Made by a program: the position numbers and the translations under genes | Part shown: one piece after another, positions 21,921 to 24,391 of the stretch | Position numbering within the stretch: position 1 is the first letter of the stretch | How the letters are laid out: each line of letters begins with the position of its first letter | Notes under the pieces: model-generated | Told to the model about the DNA's origin: nothing | What the model saw: only the letters and a program-made list of their open reading frames with translations | The model's database searches: none | Assembly (NCBI GenBank): GCA_018262575.1 | Contig: JAGSYU010000040.1 | Span: 1 to 40,834 of the forward strand | Length of the DNA stretch: 40,834 bases | Source: Pseudomonadota bacterium | GTDB taxonomy: Bacteria > Pseudomonadota > Alphaproteobacteria > Rhizobiales > Pleomorphomonadaceae | Reading direction: 5' to 3'

Positions 21921-22436
21921 ATGGCCAACGCCAAGCGCGCCTACGATCTTTACGCCACCGAGCCCGAGGAGGAGCAGGGGCTCCAGCCGCTGTATCTCGA
22001 GGCACTTCGCCTCGTCGAGCGTCTGCATCGCCGTCTCCTCGACGTTATCAAGGACGAATTTGACCGCTCGGGTCGCACCGACGTCAATGCCGTCCAGGCG
22101 CTTTTGTTGTTCAACATCGGCGACAGCGAGCTGACGGCCGGCGAACTCAGGACGCGCGGTTACTATCTCGGTTCCAACGTCTCCTACAATCTCAAGAAGC
22201 TGGTGGAGATGGGCTACATCCATCATCAGCGCTCGCGGATGGATCGTCGTTCGGTGCGCGTCAAGCTGACGGAGAAAGGCCAGACGATTGCTGACATCGT
22301 CGGCAAGCTCTACAATCGCCACATCATTTCGATCGAGACGGTCGGCGGTATCAACCGCGACGACTTCAAGGTGCTCAACAAGTCGCTGCAGCGGTTGGAG
22401 CGCTTCTGGACCGACCAGATCCTTTACCGGCTCTGA
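21921..22436 (+). CDS. ldtR: MarR family regulator LdtR
   Basis: A 171-residue winged-helix protein. The MarR core occupies residues about 25-140: VNAVQALLLFNIGDSELTAG, then the recognition region GYYLGSNVSYNLKKLVEMGY and the wing RSRMDRRSVRVKLTEKG. The sequence and its position next to an L,D-transpeptidase gene match LdtR, described in Liberibacter and rhizobia as an activator of ldtP and of stress tolerance, with small-molecule ligands. ATG at 21921 has GAGAGG about 9 nt upstream; an upstream in-frame start at 21864 lacks this. A strong hairpin follows the stop. Confidence 0.9.
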   Translation: MANAKRAYDLYATEPEEEQGLQPLYLEALRLVERLHRRLLDVIKDEFDRSGRTDVNAVQALLLFNIGDSELTAGELRTRGYYLGSNVSYNLKKLVEMGYIHHQRSRMDRRSVRVKLTEKGQTIADIVGKLYNRHIISIETVGGINRDDFKVLNKSLQRLERFWTDQILYRL

Positions 22437-22467
22437 TAGCGTCGTTCTGCTTGGTCATTGTTCGAAA

Positions 22468-22501
22468 AAAGCGGCTACCGTCCTCAAACGGTGGCCGCTT
22501 T
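22468..22501 (+). terminator. Terminator hairpin after ldtR
   Basis: AAAGCGGCTACCGT pairs with ACGGTGGCCGCTTT around CCTCAA: 14 bp with one G-U pair, starting 32 nt after the stop. The T-run is short (CTTT), and A-rich sequence precedes the stem. Confidence 0.75.
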
Positions 22502-22687
22502 GCTATGAGCGAACAAGTGTCGCCCTGTCGTTCCGGGAAAATAAGGGCGCGGAAGATCGATGAAACCGTGGCCCGTCTCGATACCGACCGATCCACTGTC
22601 AAAACTGACAGCGCATTATCAATTCGTCCAGTATCCGCAGAAAAATCACATTGGGGTGAACGCCAATACACTGCTTTTTCTGGCTTG

Positions 22688-22702
22688 TTAACCATTTGTA
22701 AA
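22688..22702. promoter_or_regulatory. CtrA-like box upstream of the candidate small RNA
   Basis: TTAACCATTTGTAAA fits TTAA-N7-TAAA, one base off the full CtrA consensus TTAA-N7-TTAA, and it includes the TTAACCAT half-site common in alphaproteobacteria. It lies 29-43 nt before the inferred RNA start. Confidence 0.5.
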
Positions 22703-22730
22703 TACTTTGCTGTCAAATGTTAATTGTATC

Positions 22731-22847
22731 GAGCATGTCGGTTGGAATGCTTCCTCCCCTTTCCCAACACCGGATGTCTCGACCGTCTCAACTCCTCCCG
22801 AGACGCGCAACTTGGCCCCGAGCGCCCTCATTGCGCTCGGGGTTTTT
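22731..22847 (+). ncRNA. Candidate trans-acting small RNA with two anti-Shine-Dalgarno loops
   Basis: About 117 nt that fold into three stem-loops. SL1 (22731-22780) pairs GAG/CTC, CAT/ATG and GTTGG/CCAAC and exposes GCTTCCTCCCCTTT. SL2 (22784-22805) pairs CGTCTC/GAGACG around AACTCCTCCC. SL3 (22816-22842) is a perfect 10-bp stem CCCCGAGCGC/GCGCTCGGGG followed by five T. CU-rich loops that can cover ribosome-binding sites and a Rho-independent end are features of trans-acting riboregulators in Rhizobiales (EcpR1 and cuckoo-type families are described with such motifs). The 5' end is inferred from SL1 and a weak TTGTAA/TTAATT promoter at 22696-22725. No protein is encoded. Family membership is not proven. 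Confidence 0.7.
22816..22847 (+). terminator. Intrinsic terminator of the candidate small RNA
   Basis: Ten perfectly paired bases (CCCCGAGCGC/GCGCTCGGGG), a 7-nt loop and TTTTT. It stands nearly 280 nt upstream of ldtP and 315 nt after the ldtR terminator, so it must end a separate transcript. Confidence 0.9.
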
Positions 22848-23128
22848 CCCGTTTCGCGCGTTGCCATGCCGTTTGATCGGGTCTGGCCTGCACTGTCGGC
22901 AGGGGTGTTCATAGTCCTCGATTTCGCCATGAATTGGCGCTACACGGCGAACCACTGGCGCTGTGATGCGAGTCCGTCGCAGGCGCCGCATTCGTGCGGG
23001 AATCCGTAGCGAGGGCTCCGTTGGCCGAGGTCCTTTTCATTGGACTGAGGTTTGGCTGCCTTTGCTCGACGTCCCGGCGTTCGAACGGTTCGATCTGGAG
23101 TGCGGTCGTGAAGGGAACATTTTTGTCG

Positions 23129-24391
23129 ATGGCGGCAAGTCGCCGCGGCGTGCTCAAGGCTGGCATCGCCGGAATGACGGCACTGGCGGCTTCTGCCTCG
23201 AAAGCCCAGACGCTGATGGCCCAGACGGAATGGACAGAAGGTTTCGATACGTCCGGTCCCGCCGACCTCACGGCGCAGTCGGCCCGGCCGTCGATCTCCG
23301 GCCAGTCGGGGTTTTATACCGAGCAGGCGATCTCCCAGTATTCCTCCATCGCCACGCAGGGTGGCTGGCCGCAGGTTCCGGCCGGCGGCACGCTCAGGGT
23401 CGGCATGGAAAGCCCGGTCGTGGCCGCGTTGCGGCAGCGGCTGATGATCACCGGCGATCTCGACCAGACCGCTGGTGTGTCCACTGCCTATGACAGCTTC
23501 GTCGACGGCGCCGTCCGCCGCTTCCAGGCCCGCCATGGCATCATCGCCACCGGCGTGGTCGATGACGCGACCCTGCGCCAGCTCAATGTGCCGGTCGAGA
23601 CGCGCATCCAGCAGCTTCAGCTCAATCTCGTCCGCCTGCAGACGCTGCCCAACCCGCTCGGTGGTAGCAGCGACCGCTTTGTGATGGTCAATGTGCCCGG
23701 TGCCGAGATCGAGACCGTTGAGGGCGACACCGTTCACTCGCGCCATCGCGGCGTGGTCGGCAAGATCGACCGCCAGACGCCGCTTCTCAACTCCAAGATC
23801 ACCATTATCCGCTTCTTCCCCTACTGGACGGTTCCCAAGAGCATCATCCTCAAGGATCTGATCCCGCAGATGCAGAAAGATGCGGCCTATCTCGACCGGC
23901 AGAAGATCCATACGTTCGACCCGCGCTCGGGTACCGAGGTGCCCTGGCAGTCGATCGACTGGAAAACCGACCAGGCGGTCAACTACATGTTCCGCCAGGA
24001 GCCCGGTGACCTCAACTCCATGGGGACGGTGAAGATCGACTTCCCATCGCCGGAAGGCGTTTACATGCACGACACGCCCAGCAAGGGTCTGTTCGGCGGC
24101 AACGATCGCTTCCATTCTTCAGGCTGCATTCGTGTTCAGAACGTCCGTGAATACGTCTACTGGATTCTGAAGAACACGCCCGATTGGCCGAAGGATCGCA
24201 TCACCGAGGCGCTGACGTCTGGTGAGCGCATCGACGCGCCGGTGGCCGATCCGGTGCCGCTCTACTTCCAGTACATCACCGCTTGGGCGACGCCGAACAA
24301 CACCGTCGAGTTCCGCGATGACATCTATCAGCGCGACGGCCTCGGCGTGCCGATGTCGCCGGAGGCGGAGAGCCAGGCGCAGGCCGGCTGA
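23129..24391 (+). CDS. ldtP: L,D-transpeptidase LdtP with twin-arginine-like signal
   Basis: A 420-residue periplasmic enzyme that makes 3-3 crosslinks or attaches proteins to peptidoglycan. The N-terminus MAASRRGVLKAGIAGM has the SRRxxLK twin-arginine motif, followed by a hydrophobic stretch and SASKAQ, a probable cleavage region. A peptidoglycan-binding-like domain lies at about residues 95-150 (MESPVVAALRQRLMITGDL, VDGAVRRFQARHGI). The YkuD catalytic domain lies at about 180-350 and ends in HSSGCIRVQNVREYV, containing the nucleophilic Cys. An alternative GTG start at 23108 with GGAG upstream would add seven residues. It is probably controlled by LdtR, encoded upstream. An intrinsic terminator follows. 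Confidence 0.9.
   Translation: MAASRRGVLKAGIAGMTALAASASKAQTLMAQTEWTEGFDTSGPADLTAQSARPSISGQSGFYTEQAISQYSSIATQGGWPQVPAGGTLRVGMESPVVAALRQRLMITGDLDQTAGVSTAYDSFVDGAVRRFQARHGIIATGVVDDATLRQLNVPVETRIQQLQLNLVRLQTLPNPLGGSSDRFVMVNVPGAEIETVEGDTVHSRHRGVVGKIDRQTPLLNSKITIIRFFPYWTVPKSIILKDLIPQMQKDAAYLDRQKIHTFDPRSGTEVPWQSIDWKTDQAVNYMFRQEPGDLNSMGTVKIDFPSPEGVYMHDTPSKGLFGGNDRFHSSGCIRVQNVREYVYWILKNTPDWPKDRITEALTSGERIDAPVADPVPLYFQYITAWATPNNTVEFRDDIYQRDGLGVPMSPEAESQAQAG

Follow-up and report, generated by a model that had tools for sequence, protein, structure and literature searches.

We describe a stretch of DNA that is very probably a small RNA gene of Pleomorphomonas-type bacteria, a poorly studied branch within the Hyphomicrobiales. 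As judged from the sequence, the gene (22729..22847, plus strand, with a predicted 5' end) would encode an independent, trans-acting small RNA of ~119 nt. The loops of its first two hairpins, SL1 and SL2, with the core UCCUCCC, would pair with purine-rich Shine-Dalgarno (SD) sequences of the form GGGAGGAR and in this way block translation initiation of target mRNAs. Messenger RNAs with sites of this form are the likely targets; in the relative that we examined (G008), genes for sugar uptake and sugar kinases are prominent among them. CtrA, bound at a box centred ~36 nt before the predicted start, probably sets transcription, and the repression would then depend on the phase of the cell cycle. 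We regard this reading, a CtrA-phased anti-SD RNA that occludes the SD sites of nutrient-uptake mRNAs, as somewhat probable. A more specific version, in which a family-specific anti-SD RNA was born or captured beside the gene ldtP, is transcribed by means of CtrA and represses sugar-uptake and catabolic mRNAs at one phase of the cell cycle, is possible but tentative.

The comparison of genomes supports, at the level of sequence, a conserved RNA with paired stems, a constant SL2, a place beside ldtP and a conserved box. Binding and activation by CtrA, the action of the loops on ribosome-binding sites and the choice of mRNAs are what we infer. The design of the RNA is ordinary; the family and its probable control are new. 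The anti-SD mechanism is credible, and the CtrA promoter is suggestive. RNAs of the ar14 kind, with anti-SD hairpins, have been described as regulators in stress and nitrogen control. If our reading is true, an anti-SD RNA under cell-cycle control would directly link the cell cycle to nutrient uptake. The genus name Pleomorphomonas was absent from the papers listed by one literature query.

Fold and conservation of the RNA

The RNA lies in the window, i.e., the whole 40,834-nt stretch analysed, which is a part of a 4.40-Mb assembly that is 86% complete (G000). Both neighbours are on the plus strand and were assigned with Pfam. Upstream is ldtR (21921..22436, stop codon 22434-22436), encoding a MarR-family regulator that is 98% identical to LdtR of a Proteobacteria bacterium MAG and 96% identical to LdtR of an uncultured Pleomorphomonas. 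Downstream is ldtP (23108..24391, with the start at GTG 23108 or ATG 23129), encoding a YkuD L,D-transpeptidase with a PG_binding_1 domain. By sequence reading, 692 nt separate the ldtR stop from ATG 23129.

An earlier note on this DNA had described in this gap an intrinsic terminator with a 10-bp stem and T5, preceded by two stem-loops with anti-SD loops, and had taken the whole for an independent RNA gene. Reading of the sequence agrees on the terminator (22814..22847, plus strand): the stem CCCCGAGCGC/GCGCTCGGGG joins 22816-22825 with 22833-22842 in ten strict pairs, the loop is CCTCATT in the window, and TTTTT follows at 22843-22847. Folded alone, it reaches -23.8 kcal/mol (z -5.4). A simple terminator scan did not report it, probably because the scan allows G-U pairs and so lengthens the stem into the run of T. 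For the whole 117 nt, the predicted fold consists of SL1, SL2 and the terminator and has an energy of -43.7 kcal/mol (z -3.5, with 1 of 200 shuffles equally good). The loop CTTCCTCCCC (22750-22759) of SL1 (22729..22782, plus strand) and the loop CTCCTCCC (22792-22799) of SL2 (22784..22805, plus strand; CGTCTCAACTCCTCCCGAGACG) are unpaired in both the MFE and the centroid folds, as the note had it. SL2 alone has z -3.0; SL1 alone is moderate only (z -1.4, 19 of 200 shuffles as good). In RNA letters, the loops of the window are CUUCCUCCCC, CUCCUCCC and CCUCAUU. The terminator loop contains CCUCCC at 7 of 14 loci, the window not among them.

The RNA is as conserved as ldtR and ldtP, and the flanking stretches are less conserved. 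The mean identity to the window over 10 relatives of the same genus is 0.896 for the RNA, 0.898 for ldtR and 0.881 for ldtP, compared with 0.435 for 22437-22640, 0.750 for 22641-22730 and 0.744 for 22848-23104. Conservation of stems and loops together with the flanking genes, which the note had expected, thus holds within the genus; beyond it SL1 is changed and partly weak.

In the genus, SL1 and SL2 have stems that are nearly constant and for this reason show hardly any covariation; one compensatory pair is found in the terminator. Alignment A3 of 14 loci (13 distinct rows) adds the diverged genus members G011 and G018 and a member of a second genus, G006. A3 was fitted to the model structure and so favours that structure; the paired share of its cells is 97.0%, and both sides have changed in 11 pairs, compared with 3.0 in shuffles (0 of 500 reach this number) and at most 2 in slid controls. 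Six of these pairs are in the terminator and five in SL1, one of the two hairpins in which the note had proposed to look for compensatory changes. SL2 has none: its stem is identical in 14/14 loci, and so covariation gives no test of it. G018, aligned to the model structure rather than by its own best fold, supplies most of the SL1 changes, since the larger part of SL1 in G011 and G006 has no place in A3. The SL1 stretch of each of these three genomes contains a predicted hairpin with a CU-rich loop; in G018 and G006 this hairpin is of other sequence. By itself, the SL1 stretch is little better than shuffles in G018 (z -1.0) and no better in G011 (z +0.9, the latter stretch being cut inside SL2); SL1 and SL2 of G006 folded together have z -3.2. 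Conservation, fold and covariation taken together back the independent RNA gene.

Distribution and relation to known RNA families

A blastn search with the stretch matched 12 of 20 genomes of the family (its own included), all from one genus. The covariance model R1, built from 11 genus sequences, matched 16 of these 20 genomes at E 0.1. We kept 14 of them, namely 13 of the 14 genus members and G006; the scores were 45.9 bits in G011, 34.1 in G018 and 27.8 in G006. The matches in G015 and G004 were weak and were dropped, with no CTCCTCC on the matched strand in the stretch read; the one in G004 adjoins the 3' end of ldtP. In G015, the genus member without the RNA, ldtR and ldtP were also not found at the thresholds used. 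With stricter filters and E 0.01, R1 matched 11 of 297 genomes of the order: seven genus members, G006 and three others. The match in G121 is a true ar14 RNA (90.7 bits). Those in G225 and G136, like a match at a second place in G006, are weak, have no CTCCTCC on the matched strand in the stretch read, and were dropped.

The SL2 block, CGTCTC-N(0-4)-TCCTCCCGAGACG, is a sharply defined marker: of 397 genomes of the order, 14 have exactly one copy and the other 383 have none, and the reversed-pattern control gave 0 matches. Within these searches the RNA is limited to one bacterial family. In a survey of 80 loci for the RNA 3' of ldtR in other families, CTCCTCC was found within 1.5 kb of ldtR at six (two of the 80 loci had less than 1.5 kb), and R1 confirmed only L002 among these, which is the same contig stretch as L095; the presence of the RNA at this place in other families was rejected. 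The ldtP loci of G001-G005 have no CTCCTCC in the 1.0-1.4 kb upstream.

The search of Rfam suggested by the note found no family at the gathering score at the site in the window. The ar14 model (RF02344, cut-off 58.8) gave 31.0 bits for the window and 29.0-32.2 for three relatives, and it had no match at E 0.1 in G011, G018 and G006. Other models were below their cut-offs as well: CcsR1 (RF02791) with 25.6 bits in the window and 28.5 in G011 (cut-off 65.3), sX13 (RF02232) with 22.6-34.9 bits (cut-off 50), which in G008 exceeds ar14 (34.9 vs 32.2), and Atu_C7 (RF02501) with 24.6 bits (cut-off 45).

The likeness to known rhizobial riboregulators that the note had proposed stands for the architecture of ar14 and cuckoo RNAs. 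Like ar14 (NfeR1/SmelC397) and the cuckoo RNAs SmelA075/SmelA099, the RNA is intergenic and has serial anti-SD hairpins with the terminator last. According to excerpts of PMC3927594, PMC7143759 and PMC10746234, the ar14/cuckoo group is defined by three hairpins with CCUCCUCCC unpaired in each and by hypervariable stems, and its loops act redundantly on translation initiation regions. The RNA of the window also has three hairpins but, unlike ar14, no exact CCUCCUCCC loop, a single SL2 block per genome and a CtrA-type box upstream. Its stems also differ from the hypervariable stems of ar14/cuckoo RNAs, since SL1 and the terminator vary between genera whereas the SL2 stem is constant. Score, motif and stem conservation thus rule out membership in ar14.

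The likeness to EcpR1 (SmelC291) did not stand. Both are Hyphomicrobiales small RNAs of ~100 nt with a terminator and with a cell-cycle role, which for our RNA is a proposal. However, the active loop of EcpR1 is UCCGCCGCAUCU and its locus is downstream of divK-pleD (excerpts of PMC4414408), while UCCGCCGCAUCU is absent from our RNA and the locus is ldtR-ldtP; homology is rejected. The closest parallel for a CtrA box combined with a C-rich loop is CcnA of Caulobacter, which differs in being 182 nt long, in lying at the replication origin and in its proposed effect on ctrA, which is activation.

G000 has a separate ar14-like locus (L082, C8:17135-17220) near a contig end; it scores 53.1 bits, below the cut-off, and carries two CTCCTCCC sites. 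The ar14 search of G000, in which 150 of 216 first-look candidates were scored, did not report the locus in the window. In the whole of G000, CTCCTCCC occurs 91 times, compared with 202 for the reversed control, i.e., about half as frequently.

Linkage to ldtP, the upstream box and alternative readings

The RNA of G006 directly precedes ldtP, which occupies C6:1049638-1050849, whereas ldtR occupies C6:314508-315017; the RNA and ldtP are thus ~0.73 Mb from ldtR. On the evidence of this one genome, the RNA travels with ldtP and not with ldtR. In G011 and G018 the RNA and ldtP are on one contig near its start, and ldtR is on another. (An apparent tandem repeat of the 3' end of ldtR occupies positions 1-190 of L110, at the start of a G018 contig.) The predicted duplex of the RNA with the leader of ldtR has -14.0 kcal/mol and that with the leader of ldtP -13.1 kcal/mol, against a background of 500 random stretches of the window with a median of -11.4 and the best 5% at or below -18.2. 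Both duplexes beat the median and fall outside the best 5%, and so ldtR and ldtP were rejected as cis targets. Together with the arrangement in G006, this leaves a link to ldtR without support.

The CtrA-type box of the window is TTAACCATTTGTAAA (22688..22702). The form TTAA-N7-TTAA is exact in 12 of 14 loci, three strongly diverged loci included; the window and G009 have TTAA-N7-TAAA, with one base different. The box precedes the SL2 core by 104-111 nt (window, G011, G018, G006) and the SL1 core by 63-65 nt (window, G011, G018). The simulated chance of such a box in 100-120 nt is 0.0002-0.005 at each of four loci, for stretches chosen with the presence of the box already known. The consensus of CtrA in S. 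meliloti is TAA-N7-TTAAC (excerpts of PMC3616915).

In G000 we found 12 distinct sites of TTAA-N7-TTAAC (18 matches) vs 4 control matches; the box of the window is not one of the 12. Eight proteins beside seven of these sites were tested by domain scan. The neighbours are hemE (uroporphyrinogen decarboxylase), a flagellar rod protein, FliO, an Hpt domain protein, whose frame begins ~425 nt from its site, a murein endopeptidase, a GGDEF protein, an epimerase and a CTP_transf_like protein. Several neighbours of such kinds are expected in a CtrA regulon; the epimerase and the CTP_transf_like protein are not telling in this respect.

CtrA may bind and activate at the box of the small RNA. A putative -10 region and start (22703..22730, plus strand) follow, and the distance from the box relies on this predicted start. 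A scan of the region gave no sigma-70 consensus site. Further upstream is a perfect inverted repeat, CTGTCA-N4-TGACAG (22596..22611), a possible operator; its inner part, TGTCA-N4-TGACA, is kept in 11/11 aligned genus genomes, within a gap that is otherwise poorly conserved. The note had suggested a role in envelope or cell-cycle control. The box favours the cell-cycle part, and the envelope part did not find support, as the best SD sites in a relative belong to sugar-uptake genes.

The same loops could belong to a small RNA under other control, by stress or nutrient regulators as in the case of NfeR1, the TTAA box being due to chance or a general feature of AT-rich promoters. LsrB drives and NtrC represses NfeR1, which is the best studied of the RNAs with a related design (excerpts of PMC10746234), the box of the window is degenerate, and the palindrome at 22596-22611 is conserved, all of which would suit such control. 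The exact 7-nt spacing in most loci, including the strongly diverged ones, and the low simulated chance make it rather unlikely in our view. A small protein in place of a regulatory RNA is extremely unlikely: 11/11 close genomes have a plus-strand frame free of stops over 22701-22850, but inside the RNA of the window this frame lacks ATG and GTG, and TTG at 22812 is its sole start codon. In addition, it stops just after SL2 in G018 and G011 (in G018 all three forward frames have stops), and it is shifted by indels in the loop of the terminator.

The element could also be a transcribed leader of ldtP, with the terminator as an attenuator of read-through into ldtP and the hairpins as a sensor. 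In the window, G018 and G006, the last from the genus in which ldtR is elsewhere, the element precedes the start of ldtP by ~270-310 nt, and the region between the terminator and ldtP is moderately conserved (0.744). However, the distance grows to ~435 nt in G011, and the conserved block CTCGATTTCGCCA(C/T)GAA (22917-22933), found by alignment, could be a promoter or operator of ldtP itself. Compare the Liberibacter LdtR site: according to excerpts of PMC3999280, LdtR protects a site within -118 to -74 of ldtP, and the published site is ATATTCCTTGTATTTTAA. We consider a leader improbable and prefer a separate RNA under CtrA. The block at 22917-22933 is recognisable, in altered form, in G018, G011 and G006. 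At 23020-23026, also upstream of ldtP, 10 relatives have GTTAACC, a CtrA half-site, where the window has GTTGGCC.

Loop complements and candidate targets

In G000, GGGAGGAR-N(3-10)-ATG has 56 matches vs 11 for the control, and thus the complement of the loops is a real SD type. Over seven genomes, GGGAGGAR before ATG occurs 47-65 times per genome and the controls 3-11 times. Many mRNAs are therefore possible partners, too many for the loop by itself to single out a target. Any anti-SD RNA could use sites of this form, the second one in G000 among them.

For G008 we fetched 51 sites and scanned the 45 that had frames of at least 40 codons. Among the matches listed, which cover 25 of 43 families, some of them not sugar-specific, there are four FGGY sugar kinases, three Peripla_BP_4, three ABC ATPases, two SBP_bac_1 and one each of RhaA, DctP and ThuA. 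Thus ~15 of 45 belong to families of solute uptake or sugar catabolism, if no member is counted twice. For the control motif, the number is 2 of 17 scanned, in a small set (33 sites, 30 loci) that probably includes false genes. NCBIfam gave glycerol kinase, xylulokinase, rhamnulokinase, rhamnose isomerase and RhaS as the best matches for five of ten G008 proteins, from partial sequences and below the full-length cut-offs.

The lean of the G008 matches towards sugar uptake weakly recalls, by analogy and with no force of proof, the action of AbcR and NfeR1. The loops of NfeR1 act on transport mRNAs and ntrB (excerpts of PMC10746234 and PMC7143759). Sites with like letters gave nine pairs for a comparison of G008 with either G009 or G006. 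Six pairs are not orthologous, including all three with G006 (0/3). The three orthologous pairs, all with G009, are glpK, xylB and rhaS, which are 94-97% identical.
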